IMG/VR virus record: IMGVR_UViG_3300028025_003290
Span: 1-33,560 of that record
DNA length: 33,560 nucleotides
Origin: a virus
Reading direction: 5' to 3' (one strand)
Shown: positions 1,560 through 30,351 of the stretch, piece by piece
How the letters are laid out: every line of letters begins with the position of its first letter
Position numbering within the stretch: the first letter of the stretch is position 1
Made by a program: the position numbers and the translations under genes
The notes under the pieces: model-generated
The model's database searches: none
What the model was told of the DNA's origin: nothing
Seen by the model: only the letters and a program-made list of their open reading frames with translations

Positions 1560-1642
1560 TAAAAAAAGCCCTAAACAGCAATCTCATCTTTTTTAAGGAT
1601 GTTGGCGGACACCGAGTAGGTGCAGATTGCTGACTAGGGCTT
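1560..1642 (-). ncRNA. candidate structured leader RNA or attenuator
   Basis: Between the regulator and the replication gene lies a long inverted repeat. AAGCCCTA (1566-1573) pairs with TAGGGCTT (1635-1642), and AGCAATC (1577-1583) pairs with GATTGCT (1625-1631), with a 3-nt internal loop. The interior holds two further small stems, CACC/GGTG (1610-1613 with 1619-1622) and CATC/GATG (1585-1588 with 1598-1601), giving a three-way junction. On the minus strand the closing stem runs directly into seven Ts (1561-1567, the first two still inside the stem), as in an intrinsic terminator. It could be a processed small RNA, for example of the c4 antisense type known upstream of phage genes, or an attenuator of the leftward operon. 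The class is inference; the pairing is seen. Confidence 0.55.
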
Positions 1643-1683
1643 ACTCTCAACTCACCGCCAAGTGATGTATTAATCATACCTTA

Positions 1684-1911
1684 TTATTCCAATTCAGGCC
1701 AAATAAATTTGTAAACTTTTGGAAACATATTTTTTCTGCTCATTAAGCCACAGCTTTTCTTCTCCAACTCAGCCCCTAAAAAAACCATTTTGTCGTATGG
1801 TATGCCCTTGGTTTTCCATTGGGCAACAGCTGGTGGGCTTACTTTGCATAGCTTGGCAACAGCAGTTGTGCCACCTAAAAGGTCTACAATTTGTGAGTCA
1901 GTTAATTTCAT
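1684..1911 (-). CDS. YdaS/Cro-like HTH regulator, 75 aa
   Basis: A DNA-binding protein likely to act as Cro or CI on the divergent promoters next to it. Residues about 13-38 form a helix-turn-helix of YdaS/Cro type (GGTTAVAKLCKVSPPAVAQW followed by KTKGIP). The C-terminus, ending FIWPELE, is typical of small phage Cro-like proteins. There is no Shine-Dalgarno before the ATG at 1911-1909. The leftward promoter (-10 TATACT at 1927-1922) puts the transcript start about 3-5 nt before the ATG, so the mRNA is nearly leaderless, like lambda cI from PRM. YdaS family members are sometimes annotated as antitoxins, but no YdaT-like partner is adjacent. The role as repressor of the rightward early promoter is inferred. 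Confidence 0.8.
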   Translation of the reverse strand: MKLTDSQIVDLLGGTTAVAKLCKVSPPAVAQWKTKGIPYDKMVFLGAELEKKSCGLMSRKNMFPKVYKFIWPELE

Positions 1912-1921
1912 AATTAAGCTT

Positions 1922-1949
1922 AGTATAGCCTAAAAAATATATTTTGCAA
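1922..1949 (-). promoter_or_regulatory. leftward promoter for the regulator and replication operon
   Basis: On the minus strand, TTGCAA (1949-1944) is followed after 16 bp by TATACT (1927-1922), a good sigma70 match. It fires toward the regulator gene and leaves almost no 5' leader. Its -35 box lies 6 bp from the -35 box of the rightward promoter, so one bound protein could affect both. Confidence 0.75.
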
Positions 1950-1955
1950 AGGGTA

Positions 1956-1984
1956 TTGACAATCTCTTTTAGTGGGCTTAATAT
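1956..1984 (+). promoter_or_regulatory. rightward early promoter
   Basis: A perfect TTGACA (1956-1961), a 17-bp spacer and TAATAT (1979-1984) make the strongest sigma70 promoter seen in the window. The predicted start is about 1990-1992, at the first base of a 16-bp palindrome. It drives the early operon starting at 2023. Confidence 0.85.
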
Positions 1985-1990
1985 TTAATT

Positions 1991-2006
1991 ACTGCAATAT
2001 CGCAGT
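1991..2006 (+). promoter_or_regulatory. palindrome at +1: operator or 5'-end mRNA hairpin, copy 1
   Basis: ACTGCAATATCGCAGT is a 5-bp inverted repeat with a 6-nt centre, starting 6 bp after the -10 box. It is followed by GAG and the ribosome site. A second copy with one base changed in the loop sits at the same distance from the promoter at 5932-5959. It can act as a dimer operator on DNA, or as a stem at the extreme 5' end of the transcript. Confidence 0.7.
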
Positions 2007-2022
2007 GAGAAAAGGAGTATTT

Positions 2023-2229
2023 ATGAACCACGATGAATTTGTTGCCATGCAACAGCAAGAAGAACGCCTAGAACTAGCTTTGGAACGCATGGAAGCTGGT
2101 GATTTCTTATCCGATGATGATGTTTCTATCATTCGTTGGGCGTGTGGTAAACCTTCCAAACCAAAATCTAAACTAGCCCCATTATTTGAGGATTGGGCAA
2201 CTATTTTCCGTAAACAAGGAGTAATTTAA
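2023..2229 (+). CDS. small acidic early protein, 68 aa
   Basis: First gene of the rightward early operon. The start MNHDEFVAMQQQEERLEL is chosen because AAAGGAG lies 5 nt upstream at 2011-2017; the frame could extend to 1972, but that would pass upstream of the predicted transcript start. The N-terminal half looks like an acidic alpha helix; the C-terminal half is Lys/Pro-rich then hydrophobic. The stop TAA shares a base with the ATG of the SSB-like gene, so the two are translationally coupled. No family is recognised. As the first gene after the promoter it could be a regulator or an SSB partner, but this is speculation. Confidence 0.8.
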   Translation: MNHDEFVAMQQQEERLELALERMEAGDFLSDDDVSIIRWACGKPSKPKSKLAPLFEDWATIFRKQGVI

Positions 2230-2867
2230 TGATTATCAGAGAAAACCGTACAGAATCCACTTTTAAGCTACCGCCATCAGGGTCACACCTTGGGCGTTTA
2301 TACAGAATCCTAGACCTTGGCACTCAGAAGGTTGAATGGCAAGGTGCAATCAAGATGCAACGCAAGCTGATGTTTAGCTTTGAGTTACATGGCGAAGATA
2401 ACGATGGCCACCCACTAACCACTAACGATGGCAAGCCGTTGATGATTTCTAAACGCTATACCATGTCTTTGGGCGAGCAATCTACCCTACGCAAAGACTT
2501 GGAATCATGGCGTGGCAAGAAGTTCACAGCAGAAGAACTGCTAGGCTTTGACCTAAATGTATTGTTAGGCAAGTTTGCTATGTGTAATGTTACCCATAAC
2601 GACCGTGAAGGTAAGACATACGCTAATTTGTCAGGTCTTAGCCAAGTGCCAGCAGCATTGAAGAAGATGCCTGAGCCTACTGGCGTGAACGAATTGATGA
2701 TATTTAGCTTAGATGCTTTTGACCAAGCTAAGTTTGACAGTCTTTCAGACGGACTTAAAGACATTATTAAGAAGTCTGCTGAATGGCGTGGCACTAACGG
2801 TGAAGAAGAAGCTAATAAAGCTGTTTCTGTTGCCTTGGCCAATATTGATGATGACATGCCCTTTTAA
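2229..2867 (+). CDS. ssb: phage single-stranded DNA-binding protein
   Basis: A 212-aa protein of the kind found in early operons of many podo- and siphoviruses, where it coats ssDNA during replication and recombination. Beta-rich stretches around residues 20-120 fit an OB-fold-like core, for example KVEWQGAIKMQRKLMFSFEL. The C-terminus IDDDMPF matches the acidic tip of bacterial SSB (E. coli ends in DDDIPF), which docks host repair and replication proteins. This tip is the main evidence. Neighbours are an exonuclease downstream and, on the other strand, RusA and Ref-like nucleases, giving a recombination set. The true family of the core (phage SSB versus an unrelated OB fold) cannot be fixed by eye. 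Confidence 0.75.
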   Translation: MIIRENRTESTFKLPPSGSHLGRLYRILDLGTQKVEWQGAIKMQRKLMFSFELHGEDNDGHPLTTNDGKPLMISKRYTMSLGEQSTLRKDLESWRGKKFTAEELLGFDLNVLLGKFAMCNVTHNDREGKTYANLSGLSQVPAALKKMPEPTGVNELMIFSLDAFDQAKFDSLSDGLKDIIKKSAEWRGTNGEEEANKAVSVALANIDDDMPF

Positions 2868-2876
2868 GGAGTAATT

Positions 2877-3008
2877 ATGAAAAAGCTATTAGTTGTTGCA
2901 CTTTTAACCATTTCAGGTATTGCTACGGCATCTTGCCCACCATACTCACCTTACGGTTGCCGTCAAGGCACAAACGGTAAGATGGTTTGTGGATGCGGTA
3001 TTAGATAA
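2877..3008 (+). CDS. small secreted cysteine-rich protein, 43 aa
   Basis: A very short gene with ribosome site AAGGAG at 2866-2871 and a start 9 nt after the SSB stop. It begins MKKLLVVALLTISGIATAS, a textbook signal peptide: two lysines, a hydrophobic core and an A-T-A-S cleavage region. The mature part is about 24 residues with four cysteines (SCPPYSPYGC ... MVCGCGIR), enough for two disulfides. It would act in the periplasm or outside the cell. No function is recognised; superinfection exclusion or envelope modification are possibilities for an early exported peptide. Confidence 0.75.
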   Translation: MKKLLVVALLTISGIATASCPPYSPYGCRQGTNGKMVCGCGIR

Positions 3009-3014
3009 ATTTTA

Positions 3015-3081
3015 GGGGCAAAAGCGGATGCTGGCTTAAGTTTTATAAGACTTGCAAGTAGCCAGTGCAGCGAGTAGCCCC
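3015..3081 (+). ncRNA. candidate structured RNA element between early genes
   Basis: The 87-nt gap between two + genes folds well. An outer stem GGGGC (3015-3019) pairs with GCCCC (3077-3081). A second stem GCTGGCT (3030-3036) pairs with AGCCAGT (3060-3066). A small inner stem AAGT/ACTT (3038-3041 with 3050-3053) closes a loop. The ribosome site AAGGA of the next gene follows within 10 nt, so the fold could control its translation. There is no T tract, so it is not an intrinsic terminator. No known riboswitch class was recognised. Confidence 0.5.
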
Positions 3082-3095
3082 ACCTTAAGGATATT

Positions 3096-3734
3096 ATGAG
3101 TTTTTTAGTAGCCAACATCCCACCAGTTAAATGCTTTGTTCGTAAAGAGTTTTTGTATAACCACGAATCAGGTCACGGTGAACTAGAACCATGCGTATGG
3201 ATGACCGCTAAAGCAATCAAAGGTCAAGCTTTCCGTATTGAGTCTATGCTTACAAACTACGGTGCTTTGTACGACAAATTACCCATTAGTGCGTATGTAT
3301 GGAAAGAAGTGGCTGACCCATTACCACTAGATTTCTTGCAGATTTGGGATTGTTTGTCATACGACATGGCCGTGGTTGAAAAGTCTAATCTTCGCGGGTT
3401 AAAGGTCAAATACTTTGGTAAAGATAAGCAGTTTCATTTTGGCAATTATTTATTCACCATTGACTTTGCCAGTCCTGATGCTAACCGCTTGGATACGAGT
3501 TTTAGTGAAGGTGTAGAAGAACATAAATCCTACAATTTTATTAAACTAGACAATGGACAATTTGCTTGCCAGCCCAACAATAGATGCCTTTGGTACGATG
3601 TTTCATTAGTTCCAGCGGTATTAAAAACACCTGATTTTAAGATACCAACTCAGATTTACAGCGTTGAAAACCATGCTAAATGGACTGCAAAAGATGAGTG
3701 GTTTTATAACTTTGTAGAAATTAAAGATGAATAG
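3096..3734 (+). CDS. conserved phage protein of unknown function, 212 aa
   Basis: A soluble protein without signal peptide or membrane segment, rich in aromatic residues. It has mixed alpha/beta character, with stretches such as CLWYDVSLVPAV near residue 168 and NRLDTSFSEGVEEHKSYNF near 135. It begins MSFLVANIPPVKCFVRKEFLY, resembling a protein seen in other uncultured aquatic phages, which is recollection rather than a search result. It lies after a structured RNA and overlaps the following HTH gene by 8 nt, so it belongs to the early operon. No catalytic motif is apparent. Confidence 0.85.
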   Translation: MSFLVANIPPVKCFVRKEFLYNHESGHGELEPCVWMTAKAIKGQAFRIESMLTNYGALYDKLPISAYVWKEVADPLPLDFLQIWDCLSYDMAVVEKSNLRGLKVKYFGKDKQFHFGNYLFTIDFASPDANRLDTSFSEGVEEHKSYNFIKLDNGQFACQPNNRCLWYDVSLVPAVLKTPDFKIPTQIYSVENHAKWTAKDEWFYNFVEIKDE

Positions 3735-4080
3735 AAAAGAACTTTTACAAAAAAAATTATTGGAGCAACTAGCTATTACTCCTATGACTCGCACAGAAAT
3801 GGCTGAGTTTTTAGATGTTAGCGTGGTTTTTATTGCTCGTTACATTACCCAGCTAAGAACATCAAAGCAGATATACATTCACCATTACGAAAGAACGCCA
3901 AGGGGTAAACCAAAGTCATTCTATGCAACTGGTAACTTGCCTGATGCCCCTGAATTACCGCCAATCCCACAGCGTGAGTTGCAAAAGCGATACAGAGAAC
4001 AAGCCCACGGCAATACAAAGCCTAAGAAGTTTTCACCACGCATGGATGAAGCAGCCAGTTGGATGTTTAACCCATGCTAA
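3727..4080 (+). CDS. winged-helix DNA-binding protein, 117 aa
   Basis: Probably an early transcription regulator. Residues 1-60 form a winged helix-turn-helix: LLEQLAITPMTRTEMAEFLD, then VSVVFIARYITQLRTSKQIY as the recognition helix, then a beta wing IHHYERTPRGKPKSFYATG. The C-terminal half is Pro- and basic-rich (PPIPQRELQKRYREQ) and probably disordered. Its ATG overlaps the stop of the preceding gene by 8 nt. A switch function from early to later transcription is possible but only inferred from the HTH and the position. Confidence 0.8.
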   Translation: MNRKELLQKKLLEQLAITPMTRTEMAEFLDVSVVFIARYITQLRTSKQIYIHHYERTPRGKPKSFYATGNLPDAPELPPIPQRELQKRYREQAHGNTKPKKFSPRMDEAASWMFNPC

Positions 4081-4172
4081 CCGTTTTGTGGGTCGTTATC
4101 GGTGGGTTTGGAATGTTAGCTCTAGCTATCTTGTCTATTTTGTTTGCTTTATGGTGGACTCAAAATGAATAA
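4074..4172 (+). CDS. single-pass membrane microprotein, 32 aa
   Basis: The reading frame starts inside the last codons of the HTH gene and encodes MLTVLWVVIGGFGMLALAIL followed by a hydrophobic stretch and a short polar end WWTQNE. Almost the whole protein is one membrane helix. It overlaps the following gene by 8 nt, and this tight overlap on both sides is the main evidence that it is translated. Function unknown. Confidence 0.55.
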   Translation: MLTVLWVVIGGFGMLALAILSILFALWWTQNE

Positions 4173-4329
4173 GGTAGCCATCAAAACCGCTTGGGTGGCG
4201 TTATTTATTGTTTTGGTGGTGTTGGCTTATGGTCATGGCTACAAAAGCGGTAGAAACGCTCAATTAGACTTTGAAGATGTATTAAAGATAGCTAAATCAC
4301 AATTTACTTGCAGAATGGAAATCAAATGA
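4165..4329 (+). CDS. small membrane-anchored protein, 54 aa
   Basis: Starts MNKVAIKTAWVALFIVLVVL, a membrane anchor, followed by a short soluble tail with GYKSGRNAQLDFEDVLKIAK. The internal ATG at 4165 is preferred over 4144 because it fits the overlap pattern of the operon. A small protein with an N-terminal anchor and the G-Y-K-x-G-R-N-A motif is common in phage early or lysis-accessory regions. Its TGA overlaps the next ATG (ATGA). Function unknown. Confidence 0.65.
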   Translation: MNKVAIKTAWVALFIVLVVLAYGHGYKSGRNAQLDFEDVLKIAKSQFTCRMEIK

Positions 4330-4499
4330 AACCAATACCTAGAATTGAAAATGATGAGTTTATGAGGGTGCAATATGTTGTTGATAAGTTTGAGCCAATT
4401 ATTGAATACCGAACCATCAAACGAGAAAAAGTAGGCACTTGGTTGCTTGGGTTGTTACCTGTTTACAGATACTTTTATAGCGATTGGAGCGAAAAATGA
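4326..4499 (+). CDS. hypothetical early protein, 57 aa
   Basis: Reads MKPIPRIENDEFMRVQYVVD, with a conserved-looking aromatic stretch near the end (LPVYRYFYSDWSEK). It is coupled by ATGA overlaps at both ends. A mildly hydrophobic segment GTWLLGLLPV may associate with membrane but is short. No family recognised. Confidence 0.65.
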   Translation: MKPIPRIENDEFMRVQYVVDKFEPIIEYRTIKREKVGTWLLGLLPVYRYFYSDWSEK

Positions 4500-4711
4500 A
4501 ACCTGTTGGATGGTGGAACAAAAATCGAAGAATTCATTGGCAAGATGCAATTTTAGAAACACAAGAAGGCGATTGGAATACCCCACTCTACACCGCACCA
4601 AGAGAGTTAAGTGATGAGGAAATAGGCGAACTATTTAGTAAATATGGTGAAAAAGATAAATGGTTTGATTTTGCTAGAGCAATACTAAAAAAAGCGAGAG
4701 AACATGAATAA
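4496..4711 (+). CDS. hypothetical early protein, 71 aa
   Basis: Contains W-rich N-terminal sequence MKPVGWWNKNRRIHWQDAI, a segment TPLYTAPRELSDEEIGELF and a C-terminal helix FARAILKKAREHE. The LYTAP-x-ELSDEE pattern is common in short proteins of enteric and aquatic phages, where it is also unassigned. Coupled to the gene before it by ATGA. The start at 4496 is used rather than 4484 for that reason. Confidence 0.65.
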   Translation: MKPVGWWNKNRRIHWQDAILETQEGDWNTPLYTAPRELSDEEIGELFSKYGEKDKWFDFARAILKKAREHE

Positions 4712-5021
4712 AGAATTTTTACTTGATTTGTTTGAATATTGTGACGGTAACTTGTATTGGAAAAAGCCAGTAAATACAAAAATCAAAGTTGGTCAAAAAG
4801 CTGGTTGCTTAAAAAATGATGGCTATATACAAATTAGGGTCAATAAAAAGCCATACCAAGCTCATAGACTTATTTATTTATACCATCATGGTATGTTGCC
4901 TGATTACCCATTAGAGTTAGACCATATAAACAGAAATCGTGCCGACAATCGCATAGAAAATTTAAGAATTGTCACTAAATCTCAAAACCAATTTAATAGA
5001 AATAAAAAAAATGATAATTAA
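4704..5021 (+). CDS. HNH homing endonuclease, short form
   Basis: A 105-aa free-standing HNH nuclease. The core motif is ELDHINRNRADNRIENLR (residues 71-88), with the catalytic DH pair at 73-74 and the downstream N-x-x-E-N-L-R typical of the family. The upstream helix YQAHRLIYLYHHG precedes it. It lacks the AP2 DNA-binding domain present in the other HNH gene of this genome. It lies between two early genes and overlaps both by about 8-11 nt. Homing into intergenic sites is known for this family; mobility here is inferred. Confidence 0.85.
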   Translation: MNKEFLLDLFEYCDGNLYWKKPVNTKIKVGQKAGCLKNDGYIQIRVNKKPYQAHRLIYLYHHGMLPDYPLELDHINRNRADNRIENLRIVTKSQNQFNRNKKNDN

Positions 5022-5757
5022 ACAAAAAAATAGCGAGTCCTCTCACTGGTATACCAAAACTGGCCAGTCAGCTTATCAAGTTGAGGGTAAAACAGGGCTT
5101 AGAGCTACAACTTTGCGTGATGCTCGTAAGTTAGACCTAGTGCCTAGCGTAACCACTATTTTGGGTGTGGCAGCTAAACCAGCGCTAACCCATTGGTTGC
5201 AGACTCAGGTTTTGTTATCAGCTTTGACATTACCAAGAGAGCCAAATGAACCTGAAAGCGACTGGCTTGAGCGTGTAATGGCTGACTCTAAGGTACAGGG
5301 CAAACAAGCAGCAGAAAGAGGAACGGCTATCCACGGCATCATTGAAAGCTACTTTGAACAGGTTTACTTACCTGAGTGGCCTGAGTATGTAAGAAACATA
5401 GATAAAGCCCTTATAGATGCGTTTGGAAGCCAACTGTGGCTATCAGAAAAGTCTTTTGCCCATGAGCTAGGGTACGGTGGAAAAATTGACCTGTCAGCCC
5501 AAAATCTAGTCGTGGACTTTAAGACCAAAGAAACAGATTTAGCCAAGGTTGAGCCATACCACGAACATAAGATGCAACTGGCAGCCTATTGCGTAGGTCT
5601 TGGCTACAAGATTGAGGAATGTAAGGCAGCAATTGTATTTGTCAACGGCACAACAAATGAAGTAAAGTTATGCGAAATACCCCCCGATTCCCTGAAATCG
5701 GCATGGGAATGCTTTGCCCATCTTTTAGCGTTTTACCGCTTAAAGAACAATATCTAA
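5011..5757 (+). CDS. PD-(D/E)XK exonuclease, RecB/Cas4-like
   Basis: A 248-aa phage exonuclease that probably resects DNA ends for recombination together with the SSB-like protein. From the ATG at 5011, motifs are ERGTAIHGIIE (residues 102-112, His108), then GGKIDL with Asp160, then VVDFKTKE with Asp169 and Lys171, and a helix with Q189 and Y193 (KMQLAAYCVGLGY). These match the RecB-family nuclease core. The upstream extension to 4969 overlaps the HNH gene heavily and is not preferred. The ribosome site is poor, so translation may be coupled to the HNH gene. A tRNA gene begins 8 nt after the stop. Confidence 0.85.
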   Translation: MIIKQKNSESSHWYTKTGQSAYQVEGKTGLRATTLRDARKLDLVPSVTTILGVAAKPALTHWLQTQVLLSALTLPREPNEPESDWLERVMADSKVQGKQAAERGTAIHGIIESYFEQVYLPEWPEYVRNIDKALIDAFGSQLWLSEKSFAHELGYGGKIDLSAQNLVVDFKTKETDLAKVEPYHEHKMQLAAYCVGLGYKIEECKAAIVFVNGTTNEVKLCEIPPDSLKSAWECFAHLLAFYRLKNNI

Positions 5758-5764
5758 AGGATAT

Positions 5765-5843
5765 TCCGCAGAACCCGAGCATGGTGCATGGGCTGGACTG
5801 TTAATCCATGGTTAGCTGAGTTCAATTCTCAGATGCGGAGCCA
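5765..5843 (+). tRNA. tRNA-Asn (anticodon GTT), CCA encoded
   Basis: Acceptor TCCGCAG (5765-5771) pairs with ATGCGGA except at the inner pair. The D stem is CCCG/TGGG with GG in the loop. The anticodon loop is CTGTTAA on a TGGA/TCCA stem, with C26 unpaired. The T arm CTGAG-TTCAATT-CTCAG is canonical. Discriminator G is followed by encoded CCA (5841-5843). The mismatches at the inner acceptor pair and at 27:43 make it slightly imperfect, but all arms are present. Confidence 0.9.
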
Positions 5844-5931
5844 AAACTTTACAATCAACTAAAAATAACCTTACAGTTGTTGCATAAAAACAACACAATC
5901 TAAGTACTTTCCCTAATTCTGTAAATATTTC

Positions 5932-5959
5932 TTGCATTATCACTTAAGTTAGCTAAACT
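5932..5959 (+). promoter_or_regulatory. second rightward early promoter
   Basis: TTGCAT (5932-5937), 16-bp spacer, TAAACT (5954-5959). The predicted start falls on the first base of a palindrome nearly identical to that at 1991-2006. It restarts transcription after the tRNA for the last four + genes. Confidence 0.65.
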
Positions 5960-5965
5960 GTCATT

Positions 5966-5981
5966 ACTGCAATAACGCAGT
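5966..5981 (+). promoter_or_regulatory. palindrome at +1: operator or 5'-end mRNA hairpin, copy 2
   Basis: ACTGCAATAACGCAGT differs from copy 1 by one loop base. The shared block runs from ATT before it to GAG after it, about 22 nt. Distance to the -10 box is the same as in copy 1 (6 bp). Confidence 0.7.
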
Positions 5982-6002
5982 GAGTAAACAAAGGAGAAGC
6001 AA

Positions 6003-6206
6003 ATGGAAGTATATGAATACGATTATGACGGCATCAAATTAGAGATTCACTATCACACAGAAGATGGTGATGAAAGTGTAGGCATGTTTGGTACGCAGAT
6101 TTATGTAGAAGGCGTATTTCACAAAGGTGAAGACATCACCGACCTTATTGGCAAGTCTACTTACGAATTTCTTGAATCTGAACTTAGCGAGGCTTTAAAT
6201 GGTTGA
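6003..6206 (+). CDS. hypothetical acidic early protein, 67 aa
   Basis: Encodes an acidic, probably beta-rich protein beginning MEVYEYDYDGIKLEIHYHTE, with GMFGTQIYVEGVFHKGEDIT in the middle and a C-terminal helix YEFLESELSEALNG. A good ribosome site AAAGGAG (5990-5996) precedes the ATG by 6 nt. First gene after the second early promoter. No family recognised; a DNA-mimic or inhibitor role cannot be judged from sequence alone. Confidence 0.8.
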   Translation: MEVYEYDYDGIKLEIHYHTEDGDESVGMFGTQIYVEGVFHKGEDITDLIGKSTYEFLESELSEALNG

Positions 6207-6288
6207 TATTCTAAAAGGTTTATTTCTAGGTGTTTGTTTCTTTGTTATCCCACTTACTGTGTGGGTTATTAAAACTGGGGGGTTGTAA
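6199..6288 (+). CDS. membrane microprotein, 29 aa
   Basis: Encodes MVDILKGLFLGVCFFVIPLT plus VWVIKTGGL, essentially one hydrophobic helix. The start overlaps the end of the previous gene by 8 nt, and the next ATG begins 1 nt after its stop. Too short for family assignment; the packing in the operon is the support. Confidence 0.5.
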   Translation: MVDILKGLFLGVCFFVIPLTVWVIKTGGL

Positions 6289-6289
6289 A

Positions 6290-6487
6290 ATGAATCAAAA
6301 AGAGATGGTGTTAGCTCACTTTAAAAAGCGTAAATCAATCACTAGCTGGGAAGCCATCCAAAAGTATGGAATCACACGCCTAGCAGCCGTTATATGCGAG
6401 TTAAAGGGTACGCACAACATTATTGCTACCATTGAAACAGCAGAAGGTAAGCGTTGGGCTAGATATACCTACATGGGGGCAAAATGA
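6290..6487 (+). CDS. winged-helix protein, 65 aa
   Basis: Begins MNQKEMVLAHFKKRKSITSW, then EAIQKYGITRLAAVICELKG as a helix-turn-helix, then a beta hairpin (ATIETAEGKRWARYTYMG). This is the short helix-turn-helix domain found in many phage early regions, which fits a DNA-binding regulator. Its TGA overlaps the ATG of the final microprotein. Confidence 0.8.
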   Translation: MNQKEMVLAHFKKRKSITSWEAIQKYGITRLAAVICELKGTHNIIATIETAEGKRWARYTYMGAK

Positions 6488-6561
6488 ACAACTTTTTAAT
6501 GCACTTATGCACTTGGTTATTTCTAGCCCTAATACTCTGCATTTTTTTAAGCAATATTTGA
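6484..6561 (+). CDS. membrane microprotein, 25 aa, end of rightward operon
   Basis: MNNFLMHLCTWLFLALILCI and a few more residues form a single membrane helix. Coupled by ATGA to the winged-helix gene. Its 3' end overlaps the 3' end of the convergent endolysin gene by 15 nt, so opposing transcripts meet here. No clear terminator hairpin was seen at the junction. Confidence 0.45.
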   Translation: MNNFLMHLCTWLFLALILCIFLSNI

Positions 6562-7008
6562 GTATTCTTCAGCAGTCAAGATTCCTGATACATATTTATT
6601 CTGCGGTTTAAATATGGTCAGGAATTGGTTTCTCATCTCAGGGGCAAACGATACATGAACCCATCTACCAAACTCATGAATTACTTGGTCTACCTGAATT
6701 TCTGAATCCTTTAAAGCTTTGGCCACAGCATAAGGGTCGCCATAGCTAGGACAAACAAAGTCAATAGCCCAGCCATCCATGTGACTTGATTTAGCAGCAC
6801 CACCAATCGCTTGATTAACAGCTGGTAGGCGTAACCATGAGCTAACCCGAATTGGCTTGCCTAACAGCTTTCTGATGGCTTCCATGCCCTCTGCTGCCTT
6901 CTTCATGTTTTCTAGTTGTTCAGGGCTTGGTTCGTTAGGAATACCCATGCGAACAGCAGTTTCGCTAAATGTTGCTTCTTCAAGGGTAAAGTTTTCACTT
7001 AGAGTCAT
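6547..7008 (-). CDS. endolysin, M15 family peptidase (D-Ala-D-Ala carboxypeptidase-like)
   Basis: A 153-aa peptidoglycan hydrolase, last gene of the leftward operon. The zinc-site motifs of peptidase M15 are visible: SSHMDGWAIDF with His76 and Asp83, and RWVHVSF with His118. SSWLR near residue 57 is also typical. No signal peptide, so release depends on the adjacent holin. The start MTLSENFTLEEATF at 7008 is preferred; a longer frame to 7053 would add a basic stretch overlapping the holin gene. It overlaps the holin stop by 14 nt. Confidence 0.88.
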   Translation of the reverse strand: MTLSENFTLEEATFSETAVRMGIPNEPSPEQLENMKKAAEGMEAIRKLLGKPIRVSSWLRLPAVNQAIGGAAKSSHMDGWAIDFVCPSYGDPYAVAKALKDSEIQVDQVIHEFGRWVHVSFAPEMRNQFLTIFKPQNKYVSGILTAEEYSNIA

Positions 7009-29139: not shown

Positions 29140-30324
29140 TTATAACTCCGCTAAAGTTGCTTTTTTACCAGTGAACTCTTCCCAACGCTTAACGATTACA
29201 TCGCAGTATTTAGGGTCTAATTCCATTAATCTAGCCCTTCTGCCTGTTTTTTCAGCAGCAATCATAGTTGAGCCTGAACCACCAAATAGGTCTAAAACTA
29301 TATCTTGTCCTTTGGTATTGTTAAGAATCTGATATTCCATGAGTTCTACAGGCTTCATAGTAGGGTGTATATCGTTGCGTTTAGGGCGTTTACACTCTAT
29401 AAGGGTAGTCTGCTTACGGTCACTAGCCCAAAGATGCCCAGCGCCCTCTTTCCAGCCGTATAAACAGGGTTCATGCTTCCAATGGTAGTCCTGTCTGCCC
29501 ATAACCATGCTGTCTTTTTGCCAAATTAGGCATTGGCGTACTTTCCAGCCAGCATCTTTACAAGCACCCCTGAAGTTGTAGCCCTCAGAATCTGCATGCC
29601 AAATGTAGAAAACAGCACCTTGTTTCATTACGGCATCGGCAGCAACAAAAGCATCTCGTAAGAACTGTCTAAACTGTTCATCGCCCATTGAGTCGTTTTG
29701 AATAGTTAAAGCATCCTTAGTTTTGCCTTCATAAGCCACATTGTAGGGTGGGTCTGTAACCAGTATATCTACCAAGCCATCGGTTAGCTTTTCCACAGAT
29801 TCTATGTTACAGCTATCACCGCACATAAGTCTATGATTTCCAAGGATATATATATCCCCAAGCTTTGTTTTTGGTTCGTCAGGGACTTGAGGCACAGCGT
29901 CTTCGTCTGTAAGCCCTTCTTCTATTGGTGGTGCTAATAAAGCATCTAGCTCTTTATCGTCAAAACCTGTGAGTGAGAGGTCAAAGTCTGCATCTTCTAG
30001 GTCTTGTAGCTCTAGCTTTAAAAAGTCCATATCCCAGCCAGCGTTCATAGCCAACTTATTGTCGGCAATTACATAAGCTTTCTTTTGGGCTTCGGTCATA
30101 TCTTTAAGCTCAATTACAGGGACTTTTGTTAGTCCTAGCTTGCGAGCAGCCATTAGACGGCCATGACCAGCAATAATGCCTTTATCTCCATCAACAAGAA
30201 TAGGGTTTGTCCACCCAAATTCTTTAATGCTGGCGGCAATCTGTGCCACCTGTGCATCATCGTGAGTTCGTGAGTTCTTAGCGTAAGGGATTAACGCTTC
30301 AACTGCAACTTCTGTGATTTGCAT
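29140..30324 (-). CDS. ParB-like domain fused to N4/N6 DNA methyltransferase
   Basis: A 394-aa two-domain protein. Residues 1-95 are a ParB/Srx-type domain (NSRTHDDAQVAQIAASIKEF, GHGRLMAARKLGL, VIADNKLAMNAGW). The methyltransferase carries catalytic DPPY (191-194) first and then the SAM motif LFGGSGST (346-353), the order of class beta amino-methyltransferases. PTMKPVELMEYQILN is also typical. It probably methylates adenine or N4-cytosine in phage DNA against restriction. Encoded directly before terminase, as is common in prophage and phage genomes. Confidence 0.92.
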   Translation of the reverse strand: MQITEVAVEALIPYAKNSRTHDDAQVAQIAASIKEFGWTNPILVDGDKGIIAGHGRLMAARKLGLTKVPVIELKDMTEAQKKAYVIADNKLAMNAGWDMDFLKLELQDLEDADFDLSLTGFDDKELDALLAPPIEEGLTDEDAVPQVPDEPKTKLGDIYILGNHRLMCGDSCNIESVEKLTDGLVDILVTDPPYNVAYEGKTKDALTIQNDSMGDEQFRQFLRDAFVAADAVMKQGAVFYIWHADSEGYNFRGACKDAGWKVRQCLIWQKDSMVMGRQDYHWKHEPCLYGWKEGAGHLWASDRKQTTLIECKRPKRNDIHPTMKPVELMEYQILNNTKGQDIVLDLFGGSGSTMIAAEKTGRRARLMELDPKYCDVIVKRWEEFTGKKATLAEL

Positions 30325-30351
30325 AAGTCATCCAAGTAGTTAGATAACTTA

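Follow-up and report, generated by a model that had tools for sequence, protein, structure and literature searches.

Two early promoters with a shared palindrome

We analyzed the early region of a freshwater phage sequence (IMG/VR record IMGVR_UViG_3300028025_003290; the whole stretch of 33,560 bases is termed the window), where a short palindrome is found at two early promoters, P1 and P2, both on the plus strand. P1 (1956 to 1984) is strong, with the -35 box TTGACA (1956 to 1961), a 17-bp spacer, and the -10 box TAATAT (1979 to 1984), and it was the top-scoring forward promoter-like site in a scan of positions 1600 to 6600. It is followed by the Shine-Dalgarno sequence AAGGAG (2012 to 2017) and by the first early gene (2023 to 2229, plus strand, ATG at 2023; 68 amino acids [aa]). 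P2 (5932 to 5959) is weaker (TTGCAT at 5932 to 5937, 16-bp spacer, TAAACT at 5954 to 5959) and fell under the cut-off of the same scan because of its weak -35 box; better -10 boxes were found in several of its homologues in relatives. Downstream of P2 lie another AAGGAG (5991 to 5996, plus strand) and a gene of 67 aa (6003 to 6206, plus strand, ATG at 6003). No family match was obtained for the products of these two genes. A Cro-like regulator of 75 aa is encoded divergently beside P1 (1684 to 1911, minus strand) and matches the Pfam family P22_Cro (E = 2.7e-7), and an exonuclease gene is located at 5011 to 5757.

The original prediction had placed a palindrome of 16 nucleotides (nt) at each promoter, and we indeed found ACTGCAATATCGCAGT at 1991 to 2006 and ACTGCAATAACGCAGT at 5966 to 5981. 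They belong to a shared block of 22 nt (1988 to 2009, ATTACTGCAATATCGCAGTGAG; 5963 to 5984, ATTACTGCAATAACGCAGTGAG) that is identical at 21 positions, the sole mismatch being in the loop as had been noted. The equal geometry was also borne out, since both stems begin 6 nt past the -10 box and precede the Shine-Dalgarno sequence. The motif ACTGC-N6-GCAGT has exactly two copies in the 33.5 kb of the window, versus 0.07 expected, and none of 100 shuffles reached two.

As RNA, the palindromes would form the 5'-terminal stem-loops ACUGC-AAUAUC-GCAGU (1991 to 2006) and ACUGC-AAUAAC-GCAGU (5966 to 5981) on the plus strand, each stem starting from the predicted +1. In the predicted folds of both leaders the 5' hairpin is kept, with AAGGAG unpaired at P1 and free except for its last base at P2. 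A search of Rfam with the hairpin returned no match at the gathering score or at E values up to 0.5. On the minus strand, a promoter-like site before a 394-aa gene (29140 to 30324) has a weak A-U hairpin at +1 (30330 to 30345), which is identical in the two relatives with the gene.

Position and pairing of the hairpin in relatives

We then looked into the six IMG/VR contigs that carry the early region (close relatives). All of them keep promoter P1 with a palindrome at the same offset, and five have ACTGC/GCAGT arms, in one case extended to six bases (ACTGCA-ATGT-TGCAGT); the P1 stem of L006 is ACTACA-ATTT-TGTAGT. At P2, the ACTGC arms are retained in L003, L004, L005, and L008, and L007 has a version one base shorter (ACTGC-ATCGG-GCAGT). 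The P2 stem of L006 is ACCGCA-ATGT-TGTGGT, an imperfect palindrome as DNA whose RNA pairs with the help of a G-U wobble; in the predicted fold of this leader, weak pairs compete at the ribosome site. Several close relatives have different genes right after P2, yet the promoter and its hairpin are retained. The Cro protein of L006 is 99% identical to that of the window while both stems are altered, and conversely L007 has an altered recognition helix in the helix-turn-helix of Cro and unaltered stem letters. Scans of IMG/VR DNA for patterns made of the window's own letters found one close relative each, because the letters are not the conserved feature. No such site was seen in L009 and L010, which carry distant homologues of the 212-aa protein.

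The wider set comprised 53 loci with a relative of the exonuclease and 80 of 398 loci with a relative of the Cro-like protein; relatives of the exonuclease are found on contigs from Limnohabitans and Methylococcales metagenome-assembled genomes. At the same promoter position, L016 and L017 have the stems CATAGCA-ATTT-TGCTATG, GTGGC-AATAAC-GCCAC, and GTAGC-AATAAC-GCTAC, and the promoter scan gave further stems at this place, among them TAAGCA-CTTT-TGCTTA, ACGTC-ATGT-GACGT, ACGGC-AATTAA-GCCGT, and ATGGC-AATTTC-GCCAT. Stems differ even among the two or three early promoters (P1, P2, and P3) of one genome in L006, L016, and L017. Loops measure 3 to 6 nt overall, and identical or related arms enclose loops of 4, 5, or 6 nt. 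Among related copies (L078/L098, L134/L136, and P2 of L007), the loop length shifts by 1 nt and the arm spacing by 1 to 2 bp. The loop letters A-A-Y..Y are frequent and fairly constant in the close clade, but they are not universal and loops vary within genomes. A distant clade, whose exonuclease is about 48% identical, has A-CGCCG-ATA-CGGCG right before AAGGAG with the stem starting from +2; its variants CGTCG/CGACG and CGCTG/CAGCG are compensated, which makes two compensated pairs in that clade alone. No promoter-linked hairpin was seen in Stenotrophomonas phage S72. In another clade (L020 3784 to 4030, L022 6344 to 6650, and L024 6750 to 7000), the P2 leader has an apparent long 5' stem that surrounds about 60 nt and whose arms show compensation (ATCAGGTC/GACCTGAT, ATCAAGTC/GACTTGAT, and ATCAGGTCG/CGATCTGAT).

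To profile hairpins by their offset, the promoter was picked irrespective of hairpins in 32 clusters of homologous P1 regions. The hairpin score peaked sharply at offset 6 after the -10 box (mean of 8.6 versus 0 to 3 elsewhere), and strong hairpins were found at this offset in 19 of the 32 clusters, versus 0.5 expected when the downstream bases were shuffled. In the control, the divergent cro promoter of these loci, a strong hairpin was present in 1 of 32. A chance origin of the palindromes is excluded by the window shuffles together with this profile and its controls.

Evaluation of 28 distinct copies revealed two-sided changes in all five stem pairs, with 39 cells versus 8.1 (standard deviation, 2.7) in shuffles, and 14 further pair types. 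The covariation score was 0.835, compared to 0.192 for shuffles and at most 0.14 for slid controls, and RNAalifold recovered the same five pairs unaided. Without any requirement for pairing, 32 of 55 distinct sites were fully Watson-Crick paired, the unpaired rest belonging mostly to a hairpin-less AT-rich subclade. In the five hairpin sites with a single non-Watson-Crick pair, this pair was always G-U or U-G; as only about three of these sites are independent, wobble discriminates between RNA and DNA in a suggestive manner only. With respect to conservation in relatives, the absence of which was to count against the original prediction, position and pairing are thus conserved, whereas the exact letters are found only in the closest relatives.

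Proposed end sealing and alternative roles

The hairpin is fixed in position and conserved in its pairing, has undergone compensatory evolution, and is present at the early promoters but, as a rule, absent from the divergent cro promoter. It represents a widespread, structure-conserved family at phage early promoters, for which no entry was found in Rfam; the family is new, but its kind is ordinary. The original prediction had left two readings side by side, a 5'-terminal RNA stem and an operator for the 1684 to 1911 protein. The former is supported by a stem fixed at the predicted +1, by compensation in each of the pairs, by wobbles, and by a variable loop length; the latter is not supported. 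Judging from the aligned sequences, the palindromes very probably encode an RNA structure, which is favored by the stem differences within genomes, the decoupling of stem and Cro in L006 and L007, the variable arm spacing, and the G-U and U-G pairs.

We propose, as the likely main role, that the stem-loop shields the early mRNAs from 5'-end-dependent decay, based on its position, its pairing, and precedent. Each early transcript would have the stem's first base as its first nucleotide, and its triphosphate end would thus be held in a helix of 5 to 6 bp directly followed by the purine-rich Shine-Dalgarno leader. This helix probably slows decay, in which an RppH-type enzyme would remove pyrophosphate before RNase E enters, and it probably also keeps the ribosome site open. 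In E. coli, a 5' hairpin hinders RppH and stabilizes the bla mRNA (PMC3997798). The recA mRNA of Acinetobacter baumannii and the vacA mRNA of Helicobacter pylori are also stabilized by 5' stem-loops (PMC7509114). The stem-loop of T7 gene 10 increases expression 1.5- to 3-fold and stabilizes mRNA in Cupriavidus necator, a member of the Burkholderiales (PMC6146998).

Several points weigh against this proposal. The decay of some mRNAs is insensitive to 5' structure (PMC3997798), and an AT-rich subclade (e.g., L079, L082, L086, L095, L111, and L123) has no clear hairpin. Most of the 28 copies came from a scan that demanded pairing, and therefore the "100% paired" of the covariation set is partly built in. 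Symmetric two-sided changes, taken by themselves, would fit a DNA palindrome that evolves fast as well. Finally, pure end sealing would not require loop letters as constant as those seen here (often A-A-Y..Y).

This constancy in the close clade would suit an RNA element that is recognized by a protein of the phage or its host and acts in cis on polymerase or ribosomes, as in nut/put antitermination or a translational operator, which we consider unlikely. RNA structures in two early leaders recall the layout of nutL/nutR or putL/putR. The translational operator of T4 gene 43, a hairpin of 16 to 18 nt, offers a precedent (PMC3014915). However, stem letters and loops vary between copies in one genome, loops can have 3, 4, 5, or 6 nt, and the absence of an Rfam match also speaks against such an element. 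On reading of the leader, a single 16-nt hairpin at the predicted +1 was found, with neither a boxA beside it nor a two-hairpin element of about 70 nt, and no transcribed boxA would be possible upstream because the hairpin would lie at the very 5' end. There is likewise a small chance that, besides sealing the end, the hairpin is a phage-specific cis element common to a large group of freshwater phages, whose loop or shape is recognized by a factor of the phage or its host. Its roles could then be in antitermination, in the control of translation, or in escape from a host nuclease defense that attacks free 5' ends; even jointly, these roles are improbable.

Less probable still is a DNA operator, in which a dimer of the Cro-like protein or of another repressor would bind the +1 palindrome and block initiation at both early promoters. 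The helix-turn-helix protein of the P22_Cro family encoded beside P1 fits this explanation, as do the two near-identical window copies, with their equal geometry and near-perfect two-fold symmetry. Nevertheless, the half-site letters change under a 99% identical Cro in L006 and stay constant under a different helix in L007. Stems that differ between P1, P2, and P3 of one genome under one Cro-like protein also argue against a single operator. Half-site spacing is not fixed either, and a shift of 1 to 2 bp, or loops of 4 to 6 nt, does no harm to an RNA loop but fits a dimer site poorly. The cro promoter, moreover, is as a rule devoid of such a hairpin. As for a LexA box, the CTG..CAG spacing of the palindrome is 8, compared to 10 for E. 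coli LexA.

Another palindrome overlaps both -10 boxes. TTWAG-N4-CTWAA has exactly two sites in the window, TTTAG-TGGG-CTTAA over that of P1 (1968 to 1981, one of the two TTWAGNNNNCTWAA sites) and TTAAG-TTAG-CTAAA over that of P2 (5944 to 5957), and its letters are mostly retained at P1 and P2 of relatives, including a Manatee Spring podovirus (L154). From its sequence and placement, this spacer palindrome is probably a better candidate for the Cro operator than the +1 palindrome, so that the operator would lie elsewhere than at +1. We would assign repression of P1 and P2 to these two candidate operators and not to the +1 hairpin.

An effect on initial transcription, in which self-pairing of the first 16 nt would help promoter escape or prevent R-loops or pausing with no role in decay, is very improbable: the hairpin is locked to +1, but it forms only once the RNA has left the polymerase and would fold late in escape. 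Besides, known 5'-terminal stems affect stability (PMC3997798).

Neighboring features and known systems

Other elements were observed in the early region. The window contains a tRNA-Asn(GTT)-like sequence (5762 to 5845) that was not detected by ARAGORN or Rfam and shares about 88% identity with intergenic stretches left unannotated in T4-like Acinetobacter phages (e.g., KARL-1); relatives have an ordinary tRNA-Asn in its place. Two intergenic stretches (1566 to 1645 and 3012 to 3085) contain long inverted repeats (agccctaa..ctagggct and ggggc..gcccc) and had no match in Rfam. A similar layout is seen in the intergenic elements GGGGCTGG..CAGCCCC and GCGTGGTTAAGCCG..CACGCC after the exonuclease gene in L020 to L025 and L014 to L017. 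An HNH endonuclease gene lies in the early operon of the window (4704 to 5021), and some relatives have an HNH-like or foreign insert between cro and P1 (L006 4321 to 4680, L024, and L077).

Comparative evidence from dozens of phage lineages suggests repeated selection for a sealed first nucleotide in early mRNAs, and 5'-end-dependent decay would therefore truly press on phages in these freshwater hosts. The relatives offer a natural series of stems for testing, with different letters at the same promoter and an AT-rich subclade without the hairpin. The analysis also tells apart two elements, the -10 palindrome and the +1 hairpin, which are readily mixed up in palindrome-based prediction of phage operators.

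The operator of P22 c2/Cro has the core AAG-N4-CTT. It resembles the spacer palindrome TTWAG-N4-CTWAA, and the Cro-like protein matches P22_Cro, while ACTGC-N6-GCAGT at +1 is unlike it. Short RNA hairpins are also repeated in the early-operon leaders of lambda (nut boxB) and HK022 (put). The element described here differs from these in being a single 16-nt hairpin that would leave no place for a boxA upstream, and in having loop and stem letters that are not constant within a genome. The T7 gene 10 leader, transcribed by T7 RNA polymerase, is likewise a phage-encoded 5' stem-loop ahead of a strong Shine-Dalgarno sequence; the likeness considered is that of layout, and in the window the early promoters are of the sigma70 type and the stem is short. 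The stabilizing 5' stem-loops of E. coli ompA and papA (Emory 1992, Bouvet and Belasco 1992, Arnold 1998, and Bricker 1999, cited in PMC3997798) have a stem at or beside the first nucleotide, which in the window is the predicted one, and share with the window a short single strand followed by a Shine-Dalgarno sequence; in them too pairing matters over letters. The hairpins of the window differ from these in lying at phage early promoters, in having two to three copies per genome, and in being deduced from sequence.

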